A stretch of 64,000 nt of DNA from the NCBI RefSeq assembly GCF_004027225.2, contig NC_044301.2, forward strand, positions 25,360,210-25,424,209, in the 5' to 3' direction. This stretch comes from Strigops habroptila (lineage: Eukaryota > Chordata > Aves > Psittaciformes > Psittacidae). Position 1 is the stretch's first letter. Every line of letters begins with the position of its first letter. The translations under genes were made by a program, and so were the position numbers. The notes beneath the pieces are model-generated. The model was not told the DNA's origin. It saw only the letters and a program-made list of their open reading frames with translations, and made no database searches. This document shows, piece after piece, positions 191 through 59,512 of this stretch.

Positions 191-274
191 GTTCCGAAAA
201 CAGATAGTGTTTGCCTTTGTATCAGTGATGACAGTCTGCTGCCTGTGCTGGCTCACTATCTTGGAGCAAAGCAG
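191..274 (+). CDS. PRMT7: PRMT7 internal exon (second methyltransferase-like module)
   Basis: This 84-bp phase 0-0 exon encodes 28 residues that include [19 protein letters not shown]. It is flanked by an AG acceptor (189-190) and a GT donor (275-276). The peptide matches the start of the C-terminal, catalytically degenerate methyltransferase module of PRMT7, a type III protein arginine methyltransferase that makes monomethyl-arginine on histones and splicing factors. The assignment rests on family knowledge and is supported by the downstream exons and by the SMPD3 neighbour. Earlier exons, including the catalytic N-terminal module, lie left of the window. Confidence 0.85.
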
Positions 275-1448: not shown

Positions 1449-1496
1449 GTATTTACATTAGAAAACTCTGCTGTGTCCTGTTCTGTCATGGAAAAA
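1449..1496 (+). CDS. PRMT7: PRMT7 internal exon
   Basis: This 48-bp phase 0-0 exon encodes VFTLENSAVSCSVMEK, between ..CATCAG and GTGAGT. It continues the preceding exon directly (AKQ then VFTLE) and matches the motif following the AdoMet-like fold of the second PRMT7 module. It is the last recognisable PRMT7 exon before the retroviral insertion. The next residues of the family (roughly 150 amino acids) were looked for up to 9860 and not found. Confidence 0.85.
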
Positions 1497-1955
1497 GTGA
1501 GTATTTGGTTTTCTGTTAAAGCAGTAAATGAACTCATGGCATTTCTAAGGCCAGAGCTGATGCCTTGGATTCTTCTTGCATCAACTGCTTGGAGGTTAAA
1601 TCAGTTTAATGAATGCATTTGATCGTAGAGTTTGACAACACTGTGGGAGGTAGGATATGTTGGAGAGGGGGAGTTCTTATTTTTTCCTGGTATTTGTACA
1701 GAGCTTTATGCAGATACTTAGAGGAATACATCCTGTCGGAGATAGATCCAGTCTCACAGCTTTAGCCACAAGCTGAATAGGCCACTGGGGAAGTTGAGCT
1801 GATCAGAGGGAATTATGGTTGCCACTGCTTGATCTCTACTTGCAGGTGCCTGTTGGCTTGTTTGCTTGAACTGCTGCTCTGCTGCCCTCATTGCATTAGT
1901 GATAAAAACCAAGGTGTTTGTTTCTGAGGGTTAGTGGAATGTGAGAGCACCCATC
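1497..1955 (+). other. PRMT7 intron remnant left of element A
   Basis: Starts with a good GTGAGT donor and runs to the TG of the element A LTR at 1956. I see no coding similarity to the missing PRMT7 exons and no known repeat. Confidence 0.6.
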
Positions 1956-2523
1956 TGTCGTGGTTTTAGCCCAGCCGGTAACTCAGAACCACACAGCCAC
2001 TCGCTCACTCCCCCCCTTCTTCCTCCCCCCACTCGCGGAGGGATGGGGAGGAGAATCGAAAGAATGTAACTCCCACGGGTTGAGATAAGAGCAGTCCTGC
2101 AACTAAGGTATAATACAAAACCACTACTGCTACCACCAGTGATAATAATGATTAGTGAAATAACAAGGGGAGAGGATACAATTCCTCACCATCCGCTGAC
2201 GGATACCCAGCTCGACCCGAGCAGTGATCTGGGCCTTCTGGGTAACTCCCCCCAGTTTATACACTGGGCATGACGTGCTGTGGTATGGAATACCCCTTTG
2301 GCTAGTTTGGGTCAGGTGTCCTGTCTCTGCTTCCTCCCGGCTTCCCCTCCTCCCTGGCAGAGCATGAGACTGAGAAAGTCCTTGGTCAGAGTAAACATTA
2401 CTTAGCAACAACTAAAAACATCAGTGTTATCAGCATTGTTCCCAGGCTGAAAGTCAAAAAAACATAGCACTGCAACAGCTACTAAGAAGGAGAAAAATGA
2501 CTGCTATAGCTGAACCCAGGACA
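1956..2523 (-). repeat. Element A 3' LTR
   Basis: A 568-bp LTR. In viral sense it runs from TGTCCTGGGTTCA (2523) to ..CCACGACA (1956), so it has TG..CA ends. It contains a TATA-like GTGTATAAAC on the minus strand near 2265. A purine-rich stretch (about 2524-2545, viral sense AATAAGGGGTGGATAC) abuts its start as a likely polypurine tract. The same LTR occurs at 8769-9170, 43,262-43,430, 47,945-48,186 (opposite orientation), 48,226-48,677 and 57,551-58,119. No clear target duplication can be assigned because the right end of the element is truncated. Confidence 0.85.
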
Positions 2524-2828
2524 GTATCCACCCCTTATTCCATACCATTCACGTCATGCTCAGATCCCACATCTCTCAACACACCATCGTCCCTGTCCCA
2601 TATATAGACATATATATACACCCACACCCACACACAAAGAGAAAGATATCATTCCCTAGTCCATGGACCAATCCCTACAAAGTTGCTGAATTCATCCAGT
2701 CCATGATGTCAGGCTCCATCTCTTGTAATAGTCTTTCAGGGCAGGAGGGACGGTACGTAGTGTTGGGTTGTTGCCTGCTGATGACACTGCCAAACTCATC
2801 TGGTCACTGCTGAGCTCGTCTGGTTTCC

Positions 2829-2957
2829 TCAAAATTCATTCTTTGTTGGGGTGATGATCGGAGGGAAGTCAGGGTCAGTTGCTGGTGACATGAAGATATC
2901 TAGCTGGTGGGCTATAAAAGTGTTATAGAGCAGGCAACAGTGTACAATTGAGTTCAT
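2829..2957 (-). pseudogene. Post-pol small ORF of element A, truncated
   Basis: Begins with ATG at 2957, overlapping the end of the integrase frame in another frame. The peptide starts MNSIVHCCLLYNTFIAHQLD, a short hydrophobic signal-like stretch, and stops after 42 residues. The equivalent ORF in element B (58,540-58,310) is 76 residues. The copy here is shortened by an indel near 2835. No known homolog is recognised. It could be a remnant of env leader sequence, an accessory ORF, or chance. Confidence 0.35.
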
Positions 2958-3709
2958 TGGCTGTTTTCCCCCAAAATCAAATTCCCTTGAGGTACACATT
3001 GGACTTCCCGCATTACGCACCAAGTATATCCAGGTCCCTGAGCAAAAGCAACCCCACGAGTGGGTTTGCCTTTACCTGAAGCAGGAATAACCCAGACGGT
3101 CTTCCCCAACAAATTCTTTATGTGCACCACAGGAACTTTATCCCCCTCTACAGTAGGTAAAAGTTCTGATTGGGCTGGGCCAGCCCTGTTGGCAGATCCC
3201 CTACTGTTGACCAACCAGGTGGCTTTTGGTAAATGTGTATCCCAGTGTTTGAAAGTCCCACCACCCATTGCTCTCAGTGTACTTTTTAACAGCCCATTGT
3301 ATTGTTTGATTTTCCCAGAGGCTGGTGCATGGTACGGGATGTGATATACCCAATCAACGCCATGCTCTTTGGCCCAAGTGTCTCTAAGGTTGTTCCGGAA
3401 ATGAGTCCCATTGTCTGACTCGATTCTCTCTGGGGTGCAGTGTTGCCACAAGACTTGTTTCTCAAGGCCCAGGATAGTGTTCCGGGCAGTGGTGTGGGGC
3501 ACACCATATGATTCCAGCCATCTGGTGGTTGCTTCCACCATGGTAAGCACATAGCGCTTGCCTTGGCAGGTCGGTGGGAGTGTGATATAGTCAATCTGCC
3601 AGGCCTCCCCATACTTGTACTTCAGCCATCGTCCTCCATACCAGAGAGGCTTTAACCACTTGGCTTGCTTAAATGCAGCACGTTTCACATTCATGAATAA
3701 CCTGGGCAA
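2954..3709 (-). pseudogene. Element A integrase, catalytic Glu lost
   Basis: An open segment of 251 codons covering the integrase core and C-terminus. Recognisable landmarks are WQIDYI (first catalytic Asp) and SDNGTHF (second Asp). The third position of the DDE triad is Lys in SGKIKQYNG, whereas element B has Glu at the same place (SGKTEQYNG). The N-terminal zinc-binding region upstream (about 3710-4020) is broken by frameshifts and stops. Integrase would insert proviral DNA in the nucleus; with the Glu replaced this copy could not. The ORF ends at ..LILGENSQ next to the small ORF. Confidence 0.85.
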
Positions 3710-4020
3710 TAGTGTCCATTGTTAAGTCCACCCCTCGATCACGAGCCCATCTATATGTTGCATCTCTGCCTTGATGGCCCACTGGGCTAAAAATAATTCA
3801 CCCTTATGTTGCCAATCTAGGTCCATCTGAGAACTTCAATCTTAGCAGCTTTATCCACTTGCTGGTTATTCTGGTGTTCCTCAGTGGCCCGACTCTTGGG
3901 TATGTGAGCATCTACGTGGCATACCTTCACCACCAGGTTCTGCACCCAGGCAGCGATATCTTGCCACAATGCAGCAGCCCAGATGGGTTTACTTCTGTGT
4001 TGCCAGTGGCTCTGCTTCCA

Positions 4021-6111
4021 TTACTGCAACCACCCCCACAGGGCATTTGCCATCATCCATGAGTCAGTATAGAGGTAAAGTACTGGCCATTTTTCTTGTT
4101 CAGCAATGTCCAAGGCCAGCTGGATGGCTTTCACCTCTGCAAAGTGACTCAATTCACCCTCTCCTTCAGCTGTTTCTGCAACTTGTCCCAGGGGACTCCA
4201 CACAGCTGCCTTCCATCTCTGATGCTTTCCCACAATATGGGAGGACCCATCAGTAAACAAGGCATATTGCTTTTTACTCTCTGCCAGTTCATTATATGGT
4301 GGGGCCTCTTCAGCATGCGTCACCTCCTCTTCTGGTGACATCCCAAAATCTTTGCCCTCTGGCCAGTCCATGATGATTTCTAGAATTCCTGGACGACTGG
4401 GATTTCCTGTTAGAGCTCCTTGCGTAATTAGTGCAGCCCACTTATTCCATGTAGCATCAGTTGCATGATGTGTAGAGGAGACCCTGCCTTTGAACATCCA
4501 GCCCAGCACAGGCAACCGGGGTGCCAGGAGGAGCTGCGCTTCAGTTCCAATCACTTCTGAAGCAACTCGAACCTGTTCATAGGCTGCCAGTATCTCTTTT
4601 TCAGTGGGAGTGTAGCTGGCCTTGGATCCTTTATATCCCCGACTCCAAAAGCCAAGGGGTCGACCTCGAGTCTCCCCTGGAGCTTTCTGCCAGAGGCTCC
4701 AGGTAGGACCATTCTCCCCAGCTGCGGTATAGAGCACATTTTTCACGCCTGGCCCGGCCCGGACTGGTCCAAGGGCTACTGCATGAACTATTTCTCGTTT
4801 AATTTGTTCAAAGGCTTGTTGTTGCTCAGGGCCCCATTTGAAATCATTCTTCTTCTGCGTCACGTGATAGAGAGGGCTTACAATCAGACTGTAATTTGGG
4901 ATGTGCATTCTCCAGAATCCCACAACACCTAAAAAAGCTTGTGTTTCTTTCTTGTTAGTTGGTGGAGATACTGCTGTTATCTTTTTGGTCACCTCTGTGG
5001 GGATCTGGTGACCTCCATGTTGCCATTTTATTCCCAAAAATTGAATCTCCTGTGCAGGTCCCTTGACCTTATTCCGTTTTATGGCAAAACTGTTCTTCAG
5101 AAGGATTTGGGTTCTTTTTCTCCCTTTCTCAAAAACTTCTTCCACTGTGTCACCCCACACGATGGCACCATCAATGTACTGCAGGTGTTCTGGAGCTTGC
5201 CCCTGTTCCAGTGCAGTCTGGATCAATCCATGGCAGATGGTAGGGCTGTGTTTCCACCCCTGGGGCAGTCGGTTCCAAGTGTACTGGACGCCCCTCCAAG
5301 TGAAAACAAACCATGGCCTGCATTCTGCTGCCAAAGGGATTGAGAAAAATGCATTGGCAATATCACTTGTGGCATCCCACTTGGCTGCCTTTGACTCCAG
5401 TTCATATTGAAGTTCTAGCATGTCCGGTACGGCAGCACTCAATGGTGGTGTGACTTCGTTCAGGCCACGATAGTCTACTGTTAGTCTCCACTCTCCATTA
5501 GACTTTTGCACTGGCCATATGGGGCTATTAAAGGGTGAGCAGGTCCTGCTGATCACTCCTTGGCTCTCCAATCTACGGATCAGCTTATGGATGGGAATCA
5601 AGGAGTCTCGGTTGGGACGATATTGCTGCCGGTGCACTGTTGTGGTCACGATTGGCACTTGTTGTTCTTCGACCTTCAGCAACCCCACAACAGAAGGATC
5701 CTCTGAGAGACCCGGTAAGGTGGACAGCTGCTTAATTTCCTCTGTCTCCAAGGCAGCTATACCAAAAGCCCATTGGTACCCTTTTGGGTCTTTGAAGTAC
5801 CCTCTCCTGAGAGAGTCTATGCCAAGGATGCATGGATCCCCTGGACCAGTCACAATGGGGTGCATTTGCCACTTCCTCCCAGTCAGGCTGATTTCAGCTT
5901 CCAGTATAGTTAACGCTTGGGATCCTCCTGTCACTCCAGAAATATAAATGGGTTTCACCCCTTGATACCTTGATGGCATCAGAGTACAATGTGCACCGGT
6001 ATCTCCTAGAGCCTTATACTTCTGTGGGATTGATGTGCCAGGCCATCTGATCCACACAGTCCAGTAAACCCGATTATCCCTCTCCTCCACCTGGCTGGAG
6101 GCAGGGCCCCT
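4021..6111 (-). pseudogene. Element A protease, reverse transcriptase and RNase H
   Basis: This is an open frame in the same frame as Gag, directly after the UAG at 6114-6112, with no ATG at its start (the first near-start codon is GTG at 6090). Counting from 6090, an aspartic protease has DTGAHC at about residue 30. The RT has SDIANAFF (about 243), LPQGWKHSP (about 275) and YIDG (305-308) where YIDD is expected. RNase H has FTDGSS (about 612), a Glu near 652 and YTDSW (about 674). The frame ends at TAA (4023-4021), where element B has CAA, so this is a nonsense change that cuts RNase H from integrase. The loss of the second RT Asp predicts an inactive polymerase. Confidence 0.9.
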
Positions 6112-6114
6112 CTA
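6084..6114 (-). promoter_or_regulatory. Gag-pol UAG with downstream hairpin (readthrough candidate)
   Basis: Gag ends with UAG at 6114-6112, and pol is open in the same frame immediately after it. Ten bases downstream a perfect 6-bp stem with a 6-base loop forms: CCTCCA-GCCAGG-TGGAGG (6101-6084). The loop GCCAGG is complementary to CCTGGC at 6042-6037, so a pseudoknot is possible. All of these elements are identical in element B (63,454-63,424 and 63,382-63,377). Stop-codon readthrough with a downstream pseudoknot is the established gag-pol strategy of gammaretroviruses; its use here is inference. Confidence 0.55.
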
Positions 6115-8706
6115 ATAGTGATCATAAAATTCTCCACTTCTGTCTTGTAGAAAGGGATTAGTATTCCTTATCACAGGAGCTGGAGTAAAATCAGCTCTTC
6201 CACTCCATCTGGGAAACTGCTCACCAGAGACTGGAGCAGCAGCTTTCCTGGGAGGATCATCCTTGACCATTGTTCTCCTCTTCAGTTTACGCACCCGTTC
6301 CTCCAGAGCTGAAGTAGGTTTTCCATCCCACTTTCTCATGTCTTCTCCGTGATCCCGCAGGTAAAACCATAGGGTGGCCCGGGGCGTGTACCTCCTATAT
6401 TTTCTTTCTCGAGCAGTAGGGCGCCTTCTGTTAATAGCTGAGACATGGGTTGGTACGCGTGGGGAGCTGGGTATATCAGATAAATCGTCTCTCAATTGTT
6501 TGAACTCCTGGGACAGTTTTTCCACACCTGAAATGATGGAAGGGGTGAGATTGTCTTCGAACTCTCAGAGTTGACGAATCAGGCAATCCACTGTTGGTGA
6601 TATTCCATCATTCCAGGTCATTGATGACAATGTGTGGGCATATGATGATGGCGCACTCCGTGTAAGTTTCCGCCACATGGGTCGTGTACGTTCGACTTCA
6701 TCTGGATCTACGGATGTGTTCCTGGCATCCGGCCTACGATAGATCATCTCTATAATGGCTGATTCCCTCAGGGACTGGATGCCTTTCTCTATCGTGGTCC
6801 AGTTGGCTGAGCAACTCGTAATATCATCTTTGTAGGGAAACCTTTCCTTCACAGCTGCCAGGAGCCGCCTCCAAAGACTGAGGGCTCTCTTCTCTCTTGC
6901 AATCGCTTTGTCAATTCCTCCTTCCCTAGCAAGTGATCCCAGCTGCTTGGCTTCCTTACCTTCTAGTTCGTGACCGTCGGCCCCATTGTCCCAGCATCGG
7001 AGCAACCAGGTGACAATGTGCTCCCCTGGAAGATGGGTGAAATCTTTTCGCATATTGCACAGCTCGGTTGAGGTCCGGGGTCGAGAAGTGACCTCTTCTT
7101 CTTCTTCCTCCTCTTCCTCTGATCCACATAGTAGTAACTCTTGTTCAGATTCTGTTCCGTGTAGTAATGGCATTGGGTCTTCATCTTTCTTCACTTCGCG
7201 GGTTGCTCTTTGTGCCTCTCGTCTGCTTTTGCTTACAGGGGCAACAGACATTGTCACAAACTGGCCATTTGGTTTAGCTGCAGTGTTTGTCACTGTGGTT
7301 GGAGTGGCTGCAGTGCCTGCCACTAGGATTGGAGTGGTTGCAATGTCTATTGCTGGGGTTGGTGCAGCTGTTGTGCTTGGGAGTTGAGTAACGCCAACAG
7401 CTGCATTGTCTGTTGCTGTCGGGGTTTGAGTAGCTACTGTGCTTGTCACTGGGGTTGATGTAGCTGCGGTTCTTGGAGTAGCCACATAGACTCTTGCTGT
7501 CGGGGTTTGAGTAGCTACTGTGCTTGTCACTGGGGTTGGTGTGGCTGCGGTGCTTGGAGTAGCCGCATTGTCTGTTGCTGTCGGGGTTTGAGTAGCTGTT
7601 GTGCTTGTCACTGGGGTTGGTGTAGCTGCTGTATTTGAAGTTGGAGTAGTTGCGTTGTCTGTTGTGGTCAGGGTTTGAGTAGCTGTTGTGCTTGTCACTG
7701 GGGTTGATGTAGCTGCTGTACTTGGAGTAGCTGTGTTGACTGTTGTGGTCAGGGTTTGAGTAGCTGCTGTGCTTGGAGTTGGAGTAGCTGCCTTGTCTAT
7801 TGCTTTGCCATCAGATCCAGAGACATTTTTTTCCCTTTGAAGGTGCTGGATAGTGTTGAGCAGGGCTCTGTAGGCGTAGGGCAAGCCCCAGCACATTGCA
7901 GCGTGTTGTCCCTCTCTGGTACAACCAGGACGACAGCACACCTCGTTTAAGTGTTTTACTAGTTTTTCCGGATGTTGTGCTTGTTCAGTGGTGAAGTTCC
8001 AAAGCACTGGAGGGGCCCACTGGCCTAGGTACTTGCCCATACTATCCCACACACCCTGCCACTCATGACTGTCCAGCCTCAGGGAAAATCTCTTGGTGGT
8101 CCTCCTATATCGTCGTCTACCCCAAGACCAGATTTGAACCCGATACTGCTTAACTTTCGAGATTAAACGAAATAGGGTGTTCCCAGGGTGGGATGGCCGT
8201 GGGTAAAACACACTCCGTATGTTTGCCAACATGCTGATCCCCAGCACAATCAGCAGGCAGGTCTCAAGGGTATTCAAAGGCCATCCAAAACCTTCAGAAC
8301 TCTCAAATGCTGTTGCAGAAACGCTGGTGGGGGAACAGGGGGTGAAAGAGAATGCCTCCTTCATAAGTTTACCCCCCGAGGAGAAAAAAAAAGATATGCA
8401 ATTGCTAAAATATTTCATTATATACCTCCCAAAGTATAGAGGTGATGGCCACACTGGAAGCACAAACCAGACCAGTTTCATGATCAATGAGTCTATTGTT
8501 ATACAAGTCATTACCATGAAGTACAGTGAAACCATAACCTTAGCCCAGGCCCCCCAGCCGATAAACACTAAAACAGCAAATAGTGGCCGTAAGTAAGGTA
8601 CAACATGCTGAAACTCTGAAATCAAGCGCAACATGTCTGAGAGCCAAATAATCACCATTGTGACGAGTAGTAACAATGAATGCTTATCACGAATATGATT
8701 AGACAC
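6112..8706 (-). pseudogene. Element A Gag polyprotein, one internal stop
   Basis: A 713-codon open frame (8706-6565), then a TGA at 6567-6565, then the same frame continues to the UAG at 6112. Element B has CGA at the internal stop, so this is a single nonsense change. The first codon at 8706 is GTG; the first in-frame ATG is residue 17. Features by residue: several hydrophobic, probably membrane-spanning segments (about 8-26, 36-98, 146-163), a basic patch (about 184-208), a Cys-His cluster C-x3-C-x5-H-x3-C (258-272), a Thr/Ala/Pro repeat (about 305-478), a Glu run (529-538) and a capsid-like region (about 545-690, with WLLRCWDNG and RTRPMWRK). The N-terminal membrane-like part is unusual for Gag. 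Confidence 0.75.
7390..7800 (-). repeat. 81-bp coding minisatellite in Gag
   Basis: The motif (c)(g/a)gggtttgagtagctg recurs at 7420, 7501, 7582, 7669 and 7750, with spacings of 81, 81, 87 and 81 bp, so the frame is kept. It encodes a 27-residue Thr/Ala/Pro-rich unit repeated about five times. It resembles a mucin-like linker between the N-terminal part and the capsid region of Gag. Confidence 0.85.
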
Positions 8707-8742
8707 ACTCTGGTCAGATCTGTCGTTATCTCAACCTTTCGT

Positions 8743-8760
8743 GCCCCACGTTGGGCGCCA
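8743..8760 (-). promoter_or_regulatory. Primer-binding site, tRNA-Lys(1,2) type
   Basis: On the minus strand, 8 bases after the LTR end, the sequence reads TGGCGCCCAACGTGGGGC. This is the 18-base PBS known from retroviruses primed by tRNA-Lys1,2. Its position fixes the 5' end of the internal region of element A. Confidence 0.85.
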
Positions 8761-8768
8761 CAAAGAAC

Positions 8769-9170
8769 TGTCGTGTTTTGAGCCCAGCCGGTAACTCAGA
8801 ACCACACAGCCACTCGCTCACTCCTCCCCTTCTTCCTCCCCCTGCTCCCGGAGGGATGGGGAGGAGAATCGAAAGAATGTAACTCCCACGGGTTGAGATA
8901 AGAGCAGTCCTGCAACTAAGGTATAATACAAAACCACTACTGCTACCACCAGTGATGATAATGATTAGTGAAATAACAAGGGGAGAGGATACAGTTGCTG
9001 ACCACCCGCTGACCGATACCCAGCCCAACCCAAGCAGTGATCTGGGCCTTCCGGGTAACTCCCCCCGGTTTATATACTGGGCATGACGTGCCGTGGTATG
9101 GAATACCCCTTTGGCTAGTTTGGGTCAGGTGTCCTGTCTCTGCTTCCTCCCGGCTTCTCCTCCTCCCTCA
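8769..9170 (-). repeat. Element A 5' LTR, U3 end truncated
   Basis: Matches 1956 to about 2360 of the 3' LTR, including the minus-strand TATA box (plus 9069-9076, tttatata). It is cut at cctcctccctc, so the U3 start with TGTCCTGGG is missing. It joins directly to a second, different LTR piece. Confidence 0.85.
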
Positions 9171-9345
9171 CAGCCACACAGCCGCTTGCTCACTCCCCCC
9201 CTCCTTCCCCTCCCGCTCCCAGAGGGATGGGGAGGAGAATCGAAAGAATCTAACTCCCACGGGTTGAGATAAGAACAGTCCAGTAACTAAGGTATAATAC
9301 AAAACTACTACTGCTACTACTGCTACTACTGCTGCTGTAATTATA
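9171..9345 (-). repeat. Second partial LTR abutting element A
   Basis: The LTR sequence restarts within the region equivalent to 1994 of the 3' LTR and runs to the tataatacaaaa part, ending in an expanded ctactgctact microsatellite (about 9303-9337). It carries gaacagtccagtaact, which matches the element B LTR and not element A (gagcagtcctgcaact). It therefore derives from another subfamily member. Confidence 0.7.
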
Positions 9346-9859
9346 TGTTTCTCTTTGTGAAACAAAATTCAAGGTTTCACGAAATCCAGGACCATCCGCA
9401 TGGGGTCTCTGTGCCTTTGCACTGGTTGTATTTACTGGCAACACACTAACATGACCTCTGCTTCTTGTGGAGCAGACACTCGAAGTGAGATGGTGTGTGT
9501 GGTAAATACTTTCTCACAATTCAGAAACCATAGATGCTGCGGGCTCTGAAGGAAGTATTCTTCAAATATGCCATATAATTTATGCCATGTTATCAAATGC
9601 CTGTTAAATGAATGAGATTTTGAGCAGATTTAGTTAGTTATGACGTTCTCCTCTTCTTTGTCTTTTTTAGATTTCATGTCTGCAAACACTTTAAAAGTTG
9701 CTACCCATTTACCAAGTCATTCAGGTCTTGAATTTTTTTTCAAGGAAACAAGTTAGTCATGCTTTTACAGCTCTCACCTAAGCTATGTGAGGAACGGGTG
9801 CAGCATTTAAGCTGTCAGTAGTATAAATTAAAAGGTTTTGATCCTCCACCTCTCCCTAG
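9346..9859 (+). other. Unassigned sequence between element A and PRMT7 exon
   Basis: No coding similarity to the missing PRMT7 exons is visible. The last part is presumably the intron upstream of the exon at 9860 (polypyrimidine and AG at 9858-9859). The first about 150 bp could belong to the chimeric LTR junction; I cannot assign it. Confidence 0.4.
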
Positions 9860-9956
9860 GAAAGGAAAGAGCCATGGAGCAGTTCTGTGGATGGAATATC
9901 ATCTTGCTGCTGCTATCTCCATTAGTATAGGACTGATGCAAATCTCAAATGAAAAG
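9860..9956 (+). CDS. PRMT7: PRMT7 penultimate exon
   Basis: A 97-bp exon with acceptor ccctag at 9854-9859 and donor GT at 9957. The first base completes a split codon, then 32 codons follow, including KGKSHGAVLWMEYHL. This matches the GQSHAAVLWMEYHL segment of the PRMT7 C-terminal module (family knowledge). Its entry phase (one base completing a codon) differs from the phase-0 exit of the exon at 1449-1496. The two exons therefore cannot be spliced to each other in frame, which supports the loss of intervening exons. Confidence 0.88.
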
Positions 9957-10499: not shown

Positions 10500-10660
10500 G
10501 GAAACTGTGAGTGGAATCCCCACTGCGAGCAAGCTGTCTACTTCTTCAGTTCTGTTATTGAATCAGAAATTCTGTCAGACCTTCCTAGTGCTGTCACATA
10601 TGCTATAAATTTCAACACAAAGACAGATGAGATATTGCCATGGATTTTAAGCTACTGTAA
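10500..10660 (+). CDS. PRMT7: PRMT7 terminal exon with 2-bp frame break
   Basis: Encodes GNCEWNPHCEQAVYFF and continues to ..NTKTDEI, matching the PRMT7 C-terminus. After GATGAG the genome reads atattgccatgg. Without the extra AT the frame would read IAMDFKLL and stop at TAA 10,658-10,660, in line with the family's short tail and with a poly(A) signal 33 bases later. As written, the frame runs past the poly(A) signal to 10,829 with an unrelated tail. This is either a real frameshift in a decaying gene, a tolerated C-terminal change, or a sequencing error. Confidence 0.75.
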
Positions 10661-29171: not shown

Positions 29172-29273
29172 TTAAGGGTCATCATCTCCTGTAGAAACCA
29201 TGAGACGCATTGCTACTGGTAGGTGGTCTGTCAAGCTTGCTAACTGGGTAATAAAGCTGAACTCTTCCACTTC
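29172..29273 (-). CDS. SMPD3: SMPD3 last coding exon
   Basis: SMPD3 is neutral sphingomyelinase 2, a membrane-bound Mg-dependent enzyme that cleaves sphingomyelin to ceramide and phosphocholine and acts in exosome release and skeletal development. This phase-0 exon follows an acceptor (ctgcag) and encodes 33 residues with EVEEFSFITQLASLTDHLPV, then TAA at 29,174-29,172. The TDH motif holds the conserved catalytic histidine of the DNase I-like phosphodiesterase fold. The C-terminal GDDDP replaces the acidic tail of mammalian proteins. The exon is intact. Confidence 0.95.
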   Translation of the reverse strand, partial: EVEEFSFITQLASLTDHLPVAMRLMVSTGDDDP

Positions 29274-30684
29274 CTGCAGAGGAAAAACAAAAGAAAGAAG
29301 GAATTGGAAAACTGATCTAGTATAGCACACACTGTACTTGGGGTTTATGCCTCTCTCTAGTTTACTTTGAACTTCCTTTCTGCATTAGTAGATGTATGGG
29401 ACCAGCCTAGACTGGCTGGGCTCATGGTAAACTATCTGCCACACAGGGCATGTCAGTGTGGTGCAGTTGATGAGGTGAACCATTTATATGATACCAGTTA
29501 AGCTAGTCTGGATGGAATCTGTTGCACCTTTTCTTTCTGTTACAGCTGTGCTGTTGCAGACACTGATCTACAGTGCTGCAGTAGGTGATCCATGTGCATA
29601 AGGAGGGGCTAGCTGTACCGTACTAGCCATGGCATGCAGCTAAAAAGGAAGCTTGTCTTCTAGACTGAGGTGTTGAACTTCCTGGGGACTCAAGGCAATG
29701 AGGAACCCTGCTCCTCATGTCTCCAAATTCCAGACTTTGTTCTGGCAACATTGCATAGGACCAAATTGAAGTTCTGTAGGAAATACTGTGTGCTTCCCAG
29801 CTTCTGACAGCTGGATGGAGCCATCCTAATGCTCACCTGATGCAATGCAGCTGACCCCTTCCACCAGCCAGGTACTTACTTCGCCAGTACTTTGGGAATT
29901 GCTTGCAGGAAGCACATATATTTGTTATGCTGCCAGCATGAGCCTTATCAATGACTTAATCTGGGTCAAAACTATTCAAATACTGGCTTTATTGCTGTTT
30001 GTGCAAAATGTAAGATGGGTTTACCATACGGATGTACCATGGGCATTTTGTGCGTCTGAAAAGAATTTAACTGCTAAGCTGTCATGTCTACAGAGTGCAC
30101 ACAGAGCACAGGCAGATCGAGGTACTGTGCACTAAGCTATGCTGAACTGCTCTATTGCCTGCTCTTCTGCAGCAGCTACAGCAGGGTATGGTAGATAAAT
30201 GTGAACTAGTGTCTCTTTTTCATCATGGAATTCTGTATAAGCTAAGGTCCTACACCAGGAAGCAGACAATGCACTGCAAGGTCTTGCTCTAGTTAGCTCA
30301 TGTCAATGTCTGCCTGCATATCACGGGCTTGTAACTTAGGTAGGTTTTAATAAGCATAATAAAAGAACATCCAAATGCCTGAAAAGATGAAAAAACATTC
30401 AGATTGCTGGCATTACCAAAACACCTAGTCTGGCAAGACTTTGAAACAAGGTGTTTTGTTTGTTTGTTTTTGAGGAGCAGCATATCTACCAGTGCTACTA
30501 CTCCTCTCGAATTTGTTTACATAATAGGTTTACAAACTCCATACTTGCTTGCAGAAGTAGAAAATAGCAAAGCAGTAGGTTCCCCTTGGAGTATGAATTT
30601 GAACCCAAGCAGAACAGGCTGCAATACCACCCAGACAAGTTTGTTGTGTGAGTTACAGCTCTTTTTGTCAGCTCTGAAACTCAC
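29274..30684 (-). other. SMPD3 intron
   Basis: Bounded by minus-strand GTGAGT at 30,684 and CTGCAG ending at 29,274. No repeat was recognised apart from a TTTG-rich patch at 30,448-30,470. Confidence 0.85.
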
Positions 30685-30847
30685 CACTTTCCATTCCAGG
30701 TAGAGACCTTCTTCTGTATAGAGCATGTAGTCAATCCTCCTCCCGTTTCCTTTCAAGGATGCCTTCCTCCCCTTCTGACTGGAACTGTAGTTCTTGCTGG
30801 TGGGGTAGACCAAGTATCCTTTCCTTCCTTCTTCACTTTCCAGCACC
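30685..30847 (-). CDS. SMPD3: SMPD3 coding exon
   Basis: A 163-bp exon: one base completes Lys, then 54 codons, including VLESEEGRKGYLVYPTSK and LKGNGRRIDYMLYTEEG. It exits in phase 0 at GTGAGT. The RRIDYML segment is characteristic of the sphingomyelinase phosphodiesterase core. The exon is intact, and the phase matches both neighbours. Confidence 0.95.
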
Positions 30848-33800
30848 CTATTTCATTAAAAAACAAAACAAGTGCATTAAATGGTTGCTTGTTCTATCCC
30901 TTCGTGTATTGCACTAGATTCTCTCCAAATCCCCAGTAAGGGTAATGCCTGTCCAAAAGGACTGTTAAACTTGTAGGGCACATCTTCCACATGTGTTTTC
31001 CAGTATGAGGCTGTGCTAACTGCTGATAGTGCTCTTAAAGCTTCATGGTGTGTTTGGCATCGGTGGTGGACCTATCCTTGTAGCCAGAAACACAGACACC
31101 TGTGAGGAGGACCCTGCCTGCCTGCCTGCTATCTGTAGTATATTGCAGTCCACAGCCCCTCTGTTGATTTCCAGCATTGCTGAGTCTAGGAGAGGAGGAA
31201 ACTGTTTCATGGGTTACTTCAGAACAAACCTGAGTACTTCAATGCAAACCTCTCTATTCTGATCAGAGCAACTCTTTCTGAGATTTAGGCAACCAGCTTT
31301 ACAGACAGGATGTGGATGAGGAATGGCTTTCTGGAGCATGCACCTGGGCAGGTGCTAGCTGGTTTTGAGCAAGCCTCAGCATCAGATTATTGTGTCTTGG
31401 ACCCCAAGCTCTTACTTCACTAGTAATGGCAGCCTAATCTACTTGATTTCTGTATGTGACACTCTCCAAACTCCTCTACAGAGATGGACTTACTCAGTGG
31501 GTGTGTTAGTCCTGCCCCCATCTTGCAAGGAGATTGCCCAGCCCAAAACCGCATGCAGAAGCACTCAAAATTAAGAATCAGTTGTCTAGGTACCAGTTCT
31601 GTGTTCAGGCAAAGCTGCAGCTCTCCCATTAAAACTTTTATTTTGGGTGCTTAAACCTTAACAGTGGGTTTTATACAGAAGACTATTGAGGCCCTGAGCA
31701 ACTTGATCTGACTTTTGAAGTTAGCCCTGCTTTGAACGTGCTACCACAACGGTCCCTGTCACTCTATTTTACGGTAAATTTATGTTGCTGTGCTGTTCTG
31801 TATTGTTTTGATGTTGTCTTGGATTTAAAAGGAAACTTGGTTTCCCTTCTTGTGTTCTGTTTAAAAGATCTGCCAACAACAGACACAACCGTGCGTGCAA
31901 AAGCAGGAGCTCCACACAATAACTGCCTGTGTAGGGTATTATGCAGACAATTGATATCAAGTACAGTTGCAGCTGGTTTGAGTGATAACTGTGCATGCAG
32001 AGAGGGACAGGTTAGGCTGTGGTTTTGCTCTCTGGCTCAAAACACAAACAAACTACTTTCCAAACCACCTCCTTGAAAATAATTTTCTTTTACTTACCTG
32101 CCAAAACCTGAGCTTAAGGTTCTGTGGTTTCCCTTGTAAGAGTTGATTACACCATTAAGCTACATCAACTATCACAGGAGAAACACTGAGCCATGAACTT
32201 GGGTCCTAGCAGGTACAAAGCCTTTAATTTCACCTTGGGGGAAAAATAAGATATTTTTGATCACCTGTTTTTTAAGACTTGACTTTGGGTGGGTTTTATG
32301 GGGTTGGGTTTAGGAGTTTTTTAATGCATGCATGTGAGAGTACAGAATGAAGGAAAAACAAGAGACAAACACCAGACTCTCATGATGTGTTTTAATGGTT
32401 GAGATTTAAATGGTTTCTTTGTCAAATTTTGTCTCTTTGGAGAAATCTGAATGGTGGCGCAGGGGGGACAGCACTTGCTGCAGTTGATTAGGTCTCAGTA
32501 GTGTTATAATCTGTACATTTGGGTCAGTTGAGACATACAAGAAATACTACATGTGTCCTCAAATATAACAATGACAAAATTCTGGTCATATACTTATTTA
32601 ATCACAACTTTTAACCCCCTTTGGACTTGGTGAGGTATTGAAGGTTCTTGGAGTTTATTGTAACCAGTTTATGAAAGTAAGCTTCCTTTTATGTATTATT
32701 CTGTTTTAGCCTGTCATCTAATAACTCACATTAAATTAGCTTGCTGTCTGCACCCCATTTGCAAGCTGATCCTACAGAGAGCTACTGCAAATGATTCACT
32801 TACTGTAATTCTTTTTTCTAGGTTCAAGAAAGCAAGCTCTTTGATGGGACTGACCTCTTTCAAAAATTGTGCTTATATTTGGCAAAGCTAATTAAGTAAC
32901 AAAGTAGAAGAAACTGCTGATTAGCGCTGCAGTGCTACTGCCAAAAATCTTATTTGCATTAATTTAAAAGATGAATTTGTTTTAGCTTCAATTATGTCCT
33001 TTCAAAAGTCTGTAAACGCTGGGTATTCACTCAACCTGCACAACTGCTCACAGAAGGGAAATGTTAATTTTAAATACATGACGAAACCAAACTGTAAATG
33101 TGCATGCATCTGCTTCTGCCTAAATTTCATAGCACTTCATACACAGTGGTTTGCTGTTTGTCTCTGCAGGAAGCAGACACCAGTACTGGACATCTGGCAT
33201 GTGCTGTGAAACAGTTACATGCTAACAATTTAAGTGAACATAACTAATTATGACCGAGTTGCACAACTAAACCTGAATTTTGTCAGAGTAATTGGCTTAA
33301 TTCATTGACACAAAGAAAGGGAGGATAGAAAGTAATTAGAACTTCATATTTTTTCTTGAAAGACTTTCAGTCTCAAATAAGCTTAAAGTTTAAGTATGAA
33401 CATTCTATCGGGCAGCTTTCTGGCTGCTGGCTGGTTGGTAGTGCTGACTGTAGCTGCAGCGAACACAGGAGGAGCGTGAAGAGCAGTGTATGCAAGGGAG
33501 CCATAAAGCAAAACTCCCTCATCATAAAGCTTGAGGGACCATCCCTCATTCAGGCGAGAAGCACCTGAGTTAAGGAGGACTTTTCTTACTGGTGCTGCAG
33601 CCTGTCACCCAGAACTGTGAGCCACCGTCCAGCAGTGGAGACTGGAAAAATTATCATTTAAATCTTGTTTCTTAGCTGTGCTCTCCTGTACCAGACTCCC
33701 ATCAGAGTTTGGAGATGAAAATGGCCTTACTCCAGTGCTTTGCTCAAAGGCCACAATCATCTATGATGTGAGATGAGATTGTGTGCCTTTTGTGAAGCCT

Positions 33801-36164
33801 TGCTGAGCAGAAGCTTGTGCAGCTTCCAGCACTGGGGCAGGGCCCAGACTGTGACAGCTAGCTTATTAATTGTAATAATTACAGCCACATACAATTATTG
33901 TTCCACAATTGTGACTGGCTTATTATTGTACCAAGTATGTTCTTCTAGTCTGATGTTGTACACATGCTGTACTTAACGTGAAAGCGATACTTAAGAACTA
34001 GTTGTTCTGCTGATTTTATGGCCTAATTAGTTTAGTAATGTGAAGTACTTAATTTTATTTATAAACTAGAGAAGAGTGCCAATGAAGAACTAATTCTCTA
34101 GATAGCTTATGCTGCCAATTTAAATGTCTGTTTGAACAGTCTGTAAAGCTTGATTAAGGCTTTTTATTGAAAAATTTGAGAACAGATCAATTTTAGGCTG
34201 TGCCCTGTTTTGCTGTGTAGATGAACGATGCTTGTTAGATGCACAGTGCTCCACAGCTTCTGTGCTATTTAGCATTTAAACATCTTTAAAGCTCAGATTC
34301 CATTAGTAGCTTTAAATTTTACTGAATTTATTGGCAATTTTTATGTTTACCAGTCCCTTGCAGAGATGGGAGGACAGGCTTGCCTGGCCTCTTGTGGAAG
34401 TGGTTTCTCTAATATTAAAGTACATCTACATAAGGTACACATGCAGATCCCTGCTTCCCTGCACATCTGCATAAGAAAAATAGTGGAAACTGAGGTCTAA
34501 GAGAGGGGGTTTTCATCTGATTAAGAGAATTATAACATATTGCAGAAAACAAAACCACACTGAGTAGGCAAAAGGTGTCATGTATATTCTGTTGCCAGTA
34601 CTCAGGAATATTTTCCAGTTATCTCAAACTGAGGTGCTGTATGTACGCATAGCTAGTGAAGTAATACTCTTAAATCTTTGTTGATCATTTGATGGCTTTT
34701 ATCTATCAGTCATGTATTTGTCAGTGGAACTTTATTGCTGAATACAAGGAACTCTTCAGGGAATAAAACAAAATATCCTAAAAGTAATTTGGTGACAGGT
34801 TGCCTGCTCCTGGAACCATAAAATAGATTGTTACACCCACATACAGATTTGCATTTGCAAACTTGATTGTGGGGCCAAATTACCTTACTTTTGCTTTCCA
34901 GAAATCTCTTTCACATGTACCAAATTCCTGTCTTCAACATGTGAATAGAAATGCCTGGAAATTTTGCAGGCTCTTGAATGTGCAAAGCATGACTTGCTGT
35001 AACAAATCCTTATTTTGAATATCAACTAAATCCAGACCTTATGTCTAGAATTCAATTTCTTTGTTCAAAACTGATACAAAGATGACTTCAAGGGGTAGCC
35101 TCACCTAAATACATTCAACTAAGTGTCCATCTATACCATGCCATGTTCTGTACTTGGTGAGTAAAAATGCCAACAGAAACTGTGCCTATGTAATGTACCG
35201 TTTCCCTTATGTGTGTTAACTGAAGCATCTGCACAGATGCATTAATTCAAATAACTTTACCTCTTCAGGATATTTTGGTAATGAACAGCTACAGCATCTT
35301 TACAGTTAAAATAATAATGTAGTTAGTCCATTAATCTAGCCTTCAAGATAGAGAAGGTGCAAAAAGGATCATCACATGTACAAAGCTTATTAATGTCTCT
35401 CCACTAGCATATTATTTGACAAGCAGCACAGGTATTCAAGAAATTTATCTGAAGACTTCTGCAAATTAAGGGGTTTTTGCATTTCTCATAAGTCTACTAG
35501 CTCAAACCAAAGATATCTGTTTCTCAATATCAAACACTCCTTAAAAGTAGTAATGCTGCACTAGTATCACCGATAGATATTAAGCTGTGGCTGATGTGCT
35601 ATTTAATTCCTCTCTATTTGTGAGCTTGCTTTGTTAGATGTATCGAATTCTGCAAGCTTTCTAGAATAGGTAATTAGTTGTTGGGTTGGGGTGGTGTTTT
35701 AAACTTTACAGGGTTTTTTATTTGAGGAAAATGACATTTCCTTCTGTTGCTGCCCTTTACAGGGCCATGACCACAGAGCTGGCTGCCTGCAGAAGCACTT
35801 CCAGACAAGCTGTTCATGTACCCTTTTTGGTAGTGCTTGGAGTTTCTTGTCCTATGGGGCTGTCCAGGTAGGACCAACTTTAGAGACATAAAAACACTAA
35901 CTGCAGTTGCTCTCATCTTCCCACCCACTGAAGCCAATTCTGTTAAGACTTAGAGAAGTAGCCCTTTTCCCTTTTCTCCCTCTTCCCCAAGTATCACTGA
36001 GTAAAAGTGATTGGTTTGTTGGATTTTGGTAGTAGGTGTTTATATTATTTTTTATTTTGCAGTCCATAAAACACCCCTCAATTTGTGAAATGTTAAATAG
36101 CAAGCAATGAACTGGCTTTTGAAGGAATTGTCTAAAGCATGTGGGAGAATTAGGAATTGCATAC
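30848..36164 (-). other. SMPD3 intron
   Basis: A 5.3-kb intron of ordinary AT-rich sequence. I see no transposable element or ORF worth naming. Confidence 0.85.
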
Positions 36165-36228
36165 TTCTGTAGGTTATCTGGAGTGCACACTTCTTCATCA
36201 TACAGTCCTTCAGGATCCAACAAGGTAC
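36165..36228 (-). CDS. SMPD3: SMPD3 coding exon
   Basis: A 64-bp exon encoding (G)TLLDPEGLYDEEVCTPDNLQ(K). It has acceptor ttcacag and donor GTATGC, with split codons at both ends that close correctly on the adjacent exons. It matches the GLYDEDVCTPDNLQK segment of SMPD3 (family knowledge). Confidence 0.95.
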
Positions 36229-37103
36229 CTGTGAAGAGAAAGGGAGATGTGACTGTCCCAGCACACCTCCTGTGACCTACCTCAGGAAGCTTCTGGGGGC
36301 AGAGGTGTGTGAAGACAGCATCTGTGGGGGGAGAGGGGACTGCGCTGAGAGCACGTTGTGTTCACCGTTCCTCTATCCAGACCTCCCTGCTGCCTGCTAC
36401 CTTCCAAAACATTGCCTCTACCCTTCCAGCATTGGGGCAGTTTCTCAGCCCGTGTCTGATTTTTTTGTTTGTTTGTTTGTTTGCTTGTTTTTCTGCTACA
36501 ACAGAGTAAAGCCATGTTATCAAACAGTTCCACATTCTTACCTTTAGTATCTTCACAGTTATAATTGCTCCTCTAGAGAAAGTCTAATTCCTGAACTAAA
36601 GATTCACCAAGTTCAACTGAGTTTCACCAGGTATGAATAGCTCACAGTTCCATGAAACATTTTATAAGATGAATCCTACAAGTTCGTAGTGTTGTTGAAC
36701 TTTGTTCCATCCTTGCTTACAGTATTTATAGAACACCAAACGGAACATTCTGATCAAAAGCTGCAGGCTTTCACTGCATGCAGAAAGTACAGAAACAATA
36801 ATTTGGCTCCTCCCCACGTAATCTAGAGATTATTTTTAAGTAGAATAGGTGTGGGAAGGCATTCAACGAGTTTGATGCTTAAGTTCTAGAATGTGGACTG
36901 AAGTTTGTGATCTCTGGTTCTTAATTATAATTCAACAAGACACTGTTAAGGCTTATAAAATACATGTTACAGAAAAACCCCTTGTAAATATTTGGTCTCC
37001 ACCAAATTCTTACTCGCAGTTAGCTGAACTATCTGCTGCTTATAGATGTTGTGTGAGTGAGACAAAGAAATGTTCATACACTTATGGTTAGAGAAGGTCT
37101 TAC
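36229..37103 (-). other. SMPD3 intron
   Basis: Contains a (TTTG)n simple repeat at 36,461-36,490; nothing else was recognised. Confidence 0.85.
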
Positions 37104-37193
37104 CGATTGCCCATGGTTTATCCTCCCCAGGACCAATTCGGCATGGGTCTTTGTAGTGTATGAACAGAGAATGTTGTTGCTCCAGCTTGTCCT
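37104..37193 (-). CDS. SMPD3: SMPD3 coding exon
   Basis: A 90-bp exon encoding (E)DKLEQQHSLFIHYKDPCRIG and on to KPWAI(G). Acceptor ccctgcag and donor GTAAGA. It is colinear with SMPD3 and intact. Confidence 0.95.
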
Positions 37194-39961
37194 CTGCAGG
37201 GAAAGCACAAGCCCAAGAAAAGGCACATCAGCTATGTGTGGTGAACCTTGGACAACCATGTGTCCTGCCACAACGAAGGCAAGTCCTCCTTCCTGCTCGA
37301 TACACATACACACGGTTGATTTGAACCAGTTCAGTAGCAGCTGTACTGCACAGCACTATCTTGTCTTGATCAGAAATCCCAGCAAATGCTTGATAGTAAC
37401 AGTGCTTTCCTACAAAGTCTTTCATAGAAAGACATTTTCAGTAGTGTCTAGCAGTAAACTGAAGTGAGTTTTCCAGTGCATTTCCTCTCCCTGCCATTGA
37501 CACTGCATGGCTTACACTGGGACAAAACTTTAGTTGAGATGGATCATCCCATGGAGGATTGGACTGACTCCACAGTGGCAATGTGAATGGCTGTTGTGGG
37601 TGTATATACACATCTTGGTAAGTTCGAAGATAAAAGTTTGTGCTTTACTCACTTCAGAAAAATTCACTGAATGTTTTCCAAGCTATAACAGATAAGAGAA
37701 AGGGCAGACAATTGATAATTCACTCGGGATATTATCTATAGCATTAAAGTCATTCTAAACATAATCAGCATGACCTATCAACTTTAAATGAATTTCTTCC
37801 TAATTGCTGCTATACTCCTTGCATTTAGCACATCAAGCTCCTAGGATTATTTAGTAAGAGATCCTACAAAAATGTATATAGCAGAATTTCAGACACTGAA
37901 CAAATAAGCAAGTTCTAGTTCTATGCATGCTGTTTGACATACTTGGGAAACAAGCACAACCAGAACTGGAACACACCAGCTGCTACAATTCCATTTGTGT
38001 TAAATGGCAAAGAAACTGGCAACAGCTCCTGTTAACTTTCTTGCAGCACTTTTACACCTTTTACAAGGTTAAAACTTCTTAGCAACACTTGAAGGTTTTC
38101 TCTTGGGCCCAACAGAATATTCACCTGTGTTTGGAGCTGCTGCTGTAACATACTTGTTGCTGTCTATTGCCAAGACAACATGTAAGTACACATGAAAATG
38201 GACTCCTCTGAAGTGGGAAACAAAACTTTAAACTGTGGGCTGTGTATCTTAGCCAGAATGCAGCTCACACACTGCAGGAATCGCATTAGATCTCCTTGTG
38301 TGAAATGCTGTTCTTGACAAGGGAAGAAGCTCTTGACCTCTCCCTGTTAAGAAGGAAGCAGAGCACAAATGTGGAGTGCAGTAGTACTGCATCCATAGCT
38401 GTAGGCATGTTTGCCATTTTCTTACTAGTAGTTATTAATAGAGCTGACTGTCCTTCAGCTACTGCATCCACACCAGCCGATCTATCTCACTACATGCTTC
38501 TAGCCTCCCCCCACCTCCCCTAATTATCTCGTGACCTTGAGAACATCCTCATAATTGCAGGCAGATTGAAAAATTAACTTGGCAGGGTACCCTGGAGTTG
38601 TGGCAGTGGATGGGAGGACTGACCTCTCTAAGATTTGACAGGGATGCAATGCAGAGAATTGCTTGTTCTGCCTGAACAGCCAAGTGGTTTGTTTAATATT
38701 TATGGAAAAGTAGATGATGAAACCTGGGCAATTGTTCATTTCTCCAGGTTTTCCCTTGTTATATGTCTACAAAATTTTCCTCAAAACCAAGATGATAGAT
38801 TAAAATTTTGTTATGACTGATTTGCAACTGTGGCACTGACAGCAACAAGTCACAGCTGATGAGACAAACTTAACCCATCTGACTGGAAGGCTTTTTATCT
38901 TATGCTAAAAGGTTTAAAAACATTAATAGATTTCTACATATGATGTCAGTCAAAATCAACCTGACCTTTCCAATAACGTTCCCACTAAGTGTATGAGTGT
39001 TTTCATAATGTTCTGTAAAGCTGGAGGGGAAAAGTGAGTTGCAGAAAATTTGTCATAAGCAAAAAAAAGCTGTTCTGTCAATACAGCTAAGAATAGAAAC
39101 TTGATATTCACTGGAACATTAATTACTTGCCATGTCAGTCTGTGGAGTGGGAAAGAATACAGAAAATCATACACAGAACCACAGAAAGCTGACAATTGCT
39201 TAAAAAAAATAAATGTTCAGTTCCCTGTAATGCTAACAAATGTCCTTAAAACAATGAGTAATGTAAAAATGGAGGAGAAAAAAACATTGCGTTACTCTTG
39301 CTTAGAGCATAAGGAAAGAAAGCAATCTAGAAATAAAAGATAAAGTAGCCAGCTTAATTTCAGTTTCCAGGCTGAGTGAATTTTAAAGGGGAGGGGGGTA
39401 AATAAGCAGCAGAGATAGCAAAGATAAAATGGATTTTTATAACCTACTTTTCAGTCCTTAGTAGTAGTAGTTGCAATGTTTACAACTATTATTTGCAAAA
39501 GCAAATAGTTGCAGGTCACAACAGCATTAATTATACCCTGTGCTTCTTGTGCAAGATCTAGGTTAGAGGGCCAGAACTTCCTGGGTGGAGAACACTGACC
39601 ATACGTTCTGCCTCTCTGCTTCACTCCCATCTCTCTCCTCATGCTGCACAGCCCTATTCATTTTCCATTTGCCATCTGGCTAGGTAGTCTCCCGTTGCTA
39701 TGCAGCAGGCTGTTTATTTCCTTGATGGACACCTTTGCCTCCAGGCCACTCCATCCACCCAACAGTACTGCAAGCGAAACAGCCGCATCACAGATTTGAC
39801 AGCAGATATGGCCATTTGTATCCATCCCCCGGCTTCTGTCTCCCTTCACCAGCACTGCTCCAGTTGCCTCCTCAGCCTGTCTGTATAGCAGCTTGGCTAG
39901 CTGAAGGCCTCTTACTGAGCACATTTCTTCCCTCCTTCCCTAAAAAAACTCACTATCACAG
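37194..39961 (-). other. SMPD3 intron, part left of provirus C
   Basis: The left part of a 6.9-kb intron that carries provirus C and an LTR fragment. There is no other structure apart from AT-rich tracts. Confidence 0.8.
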
Positions 39962-40332
39962 TGTAGGAGAGGATGGAAACTATTTGATTGTTGCCAAAGA
40001 GAAGTAACTGCTTGGCTGGAGAAGAAAGAGTTAAAGAAGAAGCAAAGTACACTGTGTGATTAAGCAGAGCAACCCAGGTGGACAGGAGCAGGAGAACAGA
40101 AAGATAAGGAACTGGTTATTTTGGGACTGTTTGTGAAACAACGAAGAATGTTGGAAAAAACAAAACTGTAAACCAGGAACTAAACATGATGTGCTAAAAC
40201 TCGCTTGGTATAAAAGGTAGAGCAATAGGCTAAAAATATCTTTTGCTAGAATGGTATAAAAGCTAGAGCAATAGGCAATAAAGTGATTTGCTGCATGAAG
40301 ATGCTCTGAGTCCGTGCCTTTCATACGCCACA
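39962..40332 (+). repeat. Provirus C 5' LTR
   Basis: Starts TGTAGGAGAGG and ends CGCCACA. It has TATA-like gtataaaag boxes near 40,209 and 40,253 and the poly(A) signal AATAAA at 40,277-40,282. Confidence 0.95.
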
Positions 40333-40334
40333 AA

Positions 40335-40353
40335 TGGCTGCCTGAACTGGGAC
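40335..40353 (+). promoter_or_regulatory. Provirus C primer-binding site candidate
   Basis: TGGCTGCCTGAACTGGGAC begins two bases after the LTR. It resembles the tRNA-Lys3 PBS (TGGCGCCCGAACAGGGAC) with one extra base and two mismatches. The tRNA identity is uncertain. Confidence 0.5.
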
Positions 40354-40564
40354 ATGAATAGGAGGCTCACGGAGCCCAAACCGGTGGCATAGCCTGACTG
40401 AACCAGGAGCCGCGGGAACTTTGATATTGTGCACCCATCACCGTTAAGCAGGTGAGTGGTCGGGAACCGAGGGAGGGAAGTTATCCCGAGATCAGCAGCG
40501 CAGTCTGGAAGTAATGCACTGTCTGCTTGAAGCTCAGCATCGGCCCATATCGGGTCCGTAACTT

Positions 40565-41208
40565 GTGACTTTGTTAGAATGGATCCATGATAAAGTGCCT
40601 GACTTTCTAGCTGGCGGCACTTTCCAAATCCCCACTTGGCAAATTGTTGGTAAACGGCTGCATGATGCTGCTTCAAACAGGGACCCCACAGCAGGGAAGC
40701 ATTTGGCAACCTGGTGGCAGATCGTGGCCACTCTTCACCAGGTACAGACCAGCGCTGCCGCTGATGCTGTCACGTCTAAGGAAGCTACTGATGCTTGTGA
40801 GGGGGTAAAATCTCCTGAAGCCTCATCACCAGCTGCCCTCCCGTACCCCCTTCTGTCTCCCCGTCTGCGCCTCCTTTGTCGTCGCAGTCCTCACCGCTGA
40901 TCACGACGATCCTCGCGGCGCAAGCGCCTCTGTCAGGAGCGGCTGAGTCGGGTGATGACCCTGATAACCCTGATAATCCTAACGACCCTACAGACCCCTT
41001 TGATTCTGGTTTTGTTGATCCGGAGAAGGAGCCGGACTTGTTTCCTCCTCCTGCTGAGGTGCAGACATTTACAGGGAAGCAGGGGTGGGGTCCGGAGGAC
41101 CGATGGCAGGACTGCAGGCGGGAAGCTCTTAACCGAGGGGACATGGGAGTAGTGGTGGTGTGCCCAGTTGTCTATCGGCCACACCAGGCTCCCTCAAAGA
41201 CACGTTAA
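40565..41208 (+). pseudogene. Provirus C gag-like 5' segment
   Basis: Two overlapping open segments (40,565-40,900 and 40,876-41,208), neither opened by ATG at the stated start. The first encodes TLLEWIHDKVPDFLAGG and looks like a retroviral matrix N-terminal region. The second is rich in Asp/Asn/Pro repeats (DDPDNPDNPNDP) and ends near an FPPPAE stretch, typical of the linker between matrix and capsid. No capsid, protease or RT follows. Assignment to gag is by position and composition. Confidence 0.5.
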
Positions 41209-42309
41209 CAAAAAAAAAAAAAAAAATAAAGGGGAACTGGGATCGAGACTCCCCACAAGATAGACTATGGAAAGCCACATTCGTCTCGAACTTTTTAAAT
41301 CATAATGGCTAGCTCAGTCGGTAGAGCAGTTGGGGGGCCTTGCACATTTGGTAGGCTCTTTCTTTCACCCCAAAAACTCAGCCATAACAGCATGGAAGTT
41401 ACGCCACATCTTTATATGCACCTTTGTGTTAAAATAATTAAAAACTTATTAAAATTAATTGTTCCATATGCTATATGGAAATACAATTATTAAATTGCTA
41501 TATGAATAGACACAGAGTAAGGGCTGTGCACACGTGTGCGTGTGTGTGAGCACTTGCACATGCATCTGTGTGGTGTAACAAACATACATTGTGCATAATG
41601 CATAATGGATATTAACCACAGACCTTTATAACAGTAAAATATGTAATTATAGACACATGAATATAAACCGAGATTATTAAAGCCTGTATGAATATATATT
41701 TATATTATTTATAGCTGTATATGCAACAGTATATAGACATCTAGATACACAGAGTGTGCAGGCATATGGATGTATTATGACAAATTGTGTGCATAATACA
41801 CAGCATTTATCGTAAAAAACTCCTTTAAAACAATAAAAGCTTTAAAAAATATATGTTTTAAAGCCATATTCAATTAGTAAATTCTAATGATATGGGGTGT
41901 GGTGTGTATTATAGCAAATATAGTGTGTGTGTATAAAAAAAAATAGTCATAGTAAATGCTGCTAAATACATGCTATGACAGTGTAATTACCCAATTTAAA
42001 CCAATATGGATCTACAGCTATGTAGAGAGCTCTATGTTCATCTTTGTGTCTGTGTGCATCTGTTAGAACAAATACGCTTTGTGTCTCACTAAAGCTGGCA
42101 TTTATATTGATAAAATCTACTATATGTATTGATAAATATAAAGCTAACCTTTAACAATAAATACTGCTAAATATGGTTTATGAAAATAGAATTTTAAAAT
42201 GTTTTTCAATAGCCACTTTTTTTTAATGTTGGCACATAAGTAAGTGTGTTAAAATATATCAATTCACTTTTACATATTATATAGACAAAACTAATGAGCA
42301 GGTGCACAC
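41209..42309 (+). other. AT-rich insert of unknown origin inside provirus C
   Basis: Begins with an oligo(A) run (about 41,210-41,226) and is followed by about 1.1 kb of AT-rich sequence without long frames. A 22-base tRNA-like stretch lies near its start. Its composition is unlike the flanking viral parts. Because the LTRs are almost identical it cannot be decayed pol or env; it looks like captured sequence. Confidence 0.6.
41307..41328 (+). repeat. tRNA-Lys-like D-arm fragment
   Basis: GGCTAGCTCAGTCGGTAGAG plus CA is identical to positions about 5-26 of vertebrate tRNA-Lys(CTT), including box A. The rest of the tRNA (anticodon, T arm) is absent, so this is not a functional tRNA gene. Confidence 0.7.
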
Positions 42310-42609
42310 ATGCTGAGCAAGAGCGTGATTGTGTCTGTGTTATTTAAACATGGGTGTGAGGATTTTAATGGAATGTGTTACATGAATCTAAGCGACCACT
42401 CAGAATCAATTCATAAGAGTATCCAGAAATTGAAAGATTCAAACAAAGACTTGCAGCTAAATCAGGGGTGGGATGCTTTTGGTCTGTTTTCACAGCTCGG
42501 GAATTTTGGACCATGGGTCAAAAATATCGCAGGGTTTATTTTAATAGCTCTAATTGCAGTATTAATGATTGCCTTATGTCTTCCTTGTCTTTTTTCTTGT
42601 GTTCAATGA
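42310..42609 (+). pseudogene. Provirus C env transmembrane C-terminal fragment
   Basis: A 99-codon frame with a cysteine motif HGCEDFNGMCYMN (C-x6-C with Tyr where a second Cys is usual), a helical SIHKSIQKLKD segment, and GPWVKNIAGF followed by a membrane span (about residues 73-96) with Cys residues on the cytoplasmic side. These are features of alpha/gamma-type retroviral TM proteins. The fusion peptide and surface subunit are missing, so it cannot mediate entry. The start codon context is incidental, because the 5' border is a deletion junction. Confidence 0.7.
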
Positions 42610-42681
42610 TCAATCGAACGAAGTATGAATCGGGTTATGGTCACGCAGTTATATGCGAACCTTGCCCTTTCGCAGATAAAT

Positions 42682-42695
42682 AAAGAAGGGGGAGA
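42682..42695 (+). promoter_or_regulatory. Provirus C polypurine tract
   Basis: AAAGAAGGGGGAGA directly precedes the 3' LTR, as required for plus-strand priming. Confidence 0.85.
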
Positions 42696-43066: not shown

Positions 43067-43261
43067 TCACAGCTGCCTTCCTATTTTGTCCTAATACATG
43101 TTAGTTTAACTACAGTATTCTGTAGCCATTACCACTTACTGTTCACCTCCACAGTGCATAATGGGTTCTTCTACCCGTCAGAGCACTTGCCAGCACCTTC
43201 TCAGACCATTCTGAGTTTACTTTGGATCATACAGTTGTGACCCATTTAATTTTTGGTACAT

Positions 43262-59508: not shown

Positions 59509-59512
59509 ACAT

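Follow-up and report, generated by a model that had tools for sequence, protein, structure and literature searches.

Does the loss of several exons at an endogenous retrovirus (ERV) mean that a parrot lacks a working PRMT7? The question arises from a 64,000-nucleotide (nt) stretch of the Strigops habroptila genome (C25:25360210-25424209, C25 being the contig that carries it; hereafter the window), which contains no N bases and holds four PRMT7 exons that cannot be joined in frame across the ERV. A complete PRMT7 is found on a second contig, C26, of the same assembly. With high confidence, we read the window as part of the chromosome-11-derived arm of the parrot neo-W, on which the PRMT7 copy decayed after recombination with the Z ceased.

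Using an ibis PRMT7 protein as query against the whole assembly (1,148,577,936 bases in 89 contigs), we obtained 24 matches, only on C25 and C26. The C26 gene is complete, with 17 exons, a reading frame of 2,070 nt, AG acceptors at exons 2-17 and GT donors at exons 1-16, and its C-terminus (GEIAMDFKLL) is like that of most birds aligned. The segment absent from the window was matched solely on C26. The window PRMT7 is most likely the W-linked gametolog of this Z copy. The original prediction, made from the window alone, had allowed that the species might be disabled for PRMT7, which the complete reading frame on C26 argues against. It was right that the ERV marks the site of several lost exons and that this copy is disabled, and the ERV-linked deletion it proposed is plausible, while the W gametolog status of the copy had been overlooked.

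The exons present in the window are as follows.

191..274, plus strand: PRMT7-W coding exon 10, AG/GT splice sites retained
1449..1496, plus strand: PRMT7-W coding exon 11, ending in phase 0, AG/GT splice sites retained
9860..9956, plus strand: PRMT7-W coding exon 16
10500..10660, plus strand: PRMT7-W coding exon 17, its C-terminal frame shifted by a net 2-nt insertion

Their assignment to PRMT7, as first proposed, is borne out by the match to the solved mouse protein (4c4a, E 6.9e-33) and by identity at 112 of 121 residues to the closest protein, that of the ibis, among 51 compared, which were taken from the best 120 of 721 matches. The reported phase clash is also genuine, since joining 1449-1496 to 9860 shifts the frame and leads to a stop at 9923. 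The same holds for the part thought to be missing, put at about 150 residues: a tblastn search of the window with mouse residues ~441-604 gave nothing significant (best E 0.42). Alignment to the complete copy identifies the absent part as coding exons 12-15 (90+162+75+161 = 488 nt). A processed pseudogene was ruled out, as the window copy keeps introns that are homologous to those of the Z copy.

The damage to PRMT7-W is not confined to this gap. A search of 30 kb of C25, of which ~21 kb precede exon 3, recovered neither exon 1 nor exon 2. One nucleotide is deleted from exon 7, codon 388 in exon 9 has changed from CGA to the stop TGA, and the placement of the net 2-nt insertion in exon 17 is ambiguous within 10627-10636. 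Exon 8 is interrupted by ~7.8 kb of ERV sequence upstream of the window (C25:25351124-25358939); a GGTA repeat borders this sequence on either side, and the insertion looks nested, one element lying within the long terminal repeat (LTR) of another.

Residue changes between the two copies were polarised with 10 outgroup proteins, the parrot protein being excluded. The 471 compared codons hold 55 Z-W differences, with 34 on the W branch (one of them the stop), 8 on the Z branch and 13 unassigned; for 25 of the 34 W-branch changes, all 10 outgroup proteins share the same residue. We preferred this comparison because a test of private changes in the window exons alone was weak: at 47 otherwise invariant sites the window has 4 such changes, the crocodile also has 4 and the others 0-3. 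That test kept 26 of 50 proteins (24 were dropped for >3 gaps), two of which, P0155 and P0167, seem to be wrongly annotated at exon 11, and one of the window's four changes (G to D near the C-terminus) is possibly part of the 2-nt insertion.

What, then, sits in place of exons 12-15? Homology to the Z ends at window position 1951 (Z axis 10966) and restarts at 9332 (Z axis 16185), and ERV-derived sequence fills the interval, so that gap and ERV coincide as had been claimed.

1952..9331, no strand assigned: ERV-derived stretch of 7,380 bp, replacing 5,218 bp of the Z with exons 12-15 (C26:19499317-19504534)
1956..2523, minus strand: left LTR of the ERV
2957..8730, minus strand: ERV interior, with open frames searched against Pfam
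8768..9168, minus strand: right LTR, cut at 9168, sharing 95.0% identity with the left LTR across 401 bp
9167..9320, minus strand: piece of a second LTR, ~10% diverged from both LTRs and truncated at both ends

In the Pfam search, the minus-strand frame at 4024-6111 matched reverse transcriptase and RNase H and that at 2957-3721 the integrase core, while the frames at 6568-8730 and 6115-6564 had no match; from the integrase frame to the left LTR, the minus strand has no further frame of at least 90 amino acids. An LTR pair, reverse transcriptase and integrase together mark the element as an LTR retroelement. At its right boundary, the cut LTR is followed by the fragment of another LTR and then by the PRMT7 intron, which excludes a complete provirus with a target-site duplication; no such duplication was seen when the two ERV edges were read. 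A further copy of this type of ERV, in the same orientation, occupies 57555-64000, ~90% identical in two long blocks, and continues past the window end.

The Kimura two-parameter (K2P) distance of the LTR pair is 0.052 (401 bp), as against 0.088 and 0.094 for the Z-W introns beside the ERV. Given that the LTR pair is the less diverged, the ERV probably entered after the Z-W split. At equal rates its age would lie, roughly, somewhat over halfway back to the Z-W divergence, a figure affected by the different rates of Z and W and by the two LTRs perhaps not being original partners.

These observations suggest a sequence of events. Once recombination with the Z stopped, the redundant W copy of PRMT7 would have decayed; one ERV would have inserted into its intron 11, and subsequently a deletion bounded by LTR sequence would have taken the right end of the ERV together with exons 12-15. 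The gene may already have been dead when the ERV arrived. Insertion in intron 11 followed by an LTR-ended deletion is the likely cause of the exon loss. That the ERVs themselves removed the exons, either by deletion between the provirus LTR and the second LTR or by repair that copied in an LTR fragment, is a more tentative proposal, to which we give somewhat less than even weight. PRMT7 function in females would be supplied by the single Z copy.

The neighbouring gene, SMPD3, offers a comparison.

29178..50704, minus strand: SMPD3-W, represented in the window by six coding matches, with the first exon lying outside

These coding matches, which are not full gene models, contain zero stops in 652 compared codons, and the Z-W ratio of nonsynonymous to synonymous divergence (dN/dS) is 0.14 (20 nonsynonymous, 39 synonymous) versus 0.36 for PRMT7. 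The openness of SMPD3 speaks for a generally sound regional assembly, the ERV junction itself lying outside this control. Broken LTR pieces in both orientations are found between its exons (43262-43430, 47940-48187 and 48220-48677).

SMPD3 follows PRMT7 on both C25 and C26, and VCP, which we take to be an old Z/W gene pair, is located on the same two contigs. On C26, MC1R lies at 2.25 Mb, PRMT7 at 19.5 Mb and SMPD3 at 19.446-19.496 Mb; all three are presumably chicken chromosome 11 genes. Moreover, the blocks of the Z-W alignment are 82-96% identical and remain collinear to about position 44 kb of the window.

An autosomal segmental duplicate, instead of a W gametolog, would also give two copies on two contigs. 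However, this long alignment in conserved order, together with SMPD3 beside PRMT7 on both contigs and VCP on the same two, makes such a duplicate very improbable. An assembly artefact deserves slightly more weight and is still unlikely. It would require that W exons 12-15 really exist and were lost by collapse between ERV copies, for which the ~90% similarity of related copies within the window and the patchwork of LTR pieces at the right boundary could be cited. Against this, a simple collapse of two alike copies would not be expected to leave a truncated LTR next to an LTR piece that is 10% diverged. The suggestion that sequence was lost at the repeat is further disfavoured because five other lesions lie outside this ERV, disabling the W copy regardless, and because exons 12-15 have matches on C26 and on no other contig, C25 included. 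Species-wide loss of PRMT7, which is how the window looks when taken alone, can hardly be upheld beside a complete reading frame in the same assembly.

Several observations nevertheless weigh against a decayed neo-W copy. The W/Z identity of the contigs leans on their sizes and on two marker genes, and the first MC1R search scored 126 of 286 candidates. Z-W order is disturbed at 45-61 kb of the window, where certain Z blocks are present in two or three copies. The window exons are closer to the ibis (112/121) than to the parrot Amazona (108/121), and the Z protein is equally close to both; parrots are not singled out by protein similarity, and the parrot assignment draws on the chromosome 11 fusion. 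The W exons examined (3-7, 9-11, 16, 17) retain AG acceptors (10/10) and internal GT donors (9/9), so transcription of the W copy is possible. The order of events, ERV insertion and then deletion, is one that we infer. Finally, the PRMT7 dN/dS of 0.36 (47 nonsynonymous and 34 synonymous changes in 435 codons, with gapped codons, stops and exon 8 excluded) is not neutral. A Z branch that remained under constraint would be expected to give a value below 1; the ratio mixes that branch with any constrained time on the W, and by itself is no proof of W neutrality.

A neo-W of this origin has been described. In the ancestor of parrots, chromosome 11 fused to Z and W, forming stratum S4, ~31.8 My old, and the chromosome 11 neo-W, with W data shown for the monk parakeet, has ~86% Z-W similarity, 16.9% of its gene content kept and many long LTR insertions (Huang et al. 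2022, PMC8854603). The main text of that paper names neither PRMT7 nor SMPD3 (0 occurrences). It does describe the loss of ALC1, where exons are likewise missing at transposable elements and repeat-mediated deletion is proposed; those elements are CR1-psi copies and the gene is lost from parrots, whereas here an LTR element is involved and a complete Z copy remains. An ERV-rich W agrees with the avian W as a refugium of endogenous retroviruses (Peona et al. 2021, PMC8310711), work that is concerned with the load and expression of ERVs rather than with how a single gene breaks. In the crested ibis, a microchromosome has likewise fused to Z and W, but it is chromosome 22 rather than 11, and decay is slow (Xu et al. 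2024, PMC10891136); an ibis neo-sex chromosome, considered since the ibis protein is closest to the window exons, was set aside on this ground. The fusion, gene loss from the parrot chromosome 11 neo-W and ERV build-up on the avian W are thus already published; breakage of the W copy of PRMT7 was not found in the literature searched on PRMT7, parrots, the W chromosome and bird gene loss.

The PRMT7 case is most likely ordinary sex-chromosome decay with a complete copy remaining on the Z, which dispels the concern that a conserved methyltransferase gene had been lost and illustrates how a W-linked copy may be taken for the gene itself in a female assembly. It also provides a tidy neo-W contrast, with PRMT7 dead, the adjacent SMPD3 open and the deletion marked by a broken LTR element. 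If the ERVs did remove the exons, ERV-ended deletions could be a regular route of exon loss in young neo-W genes, beyond the passive filling of dead genes.
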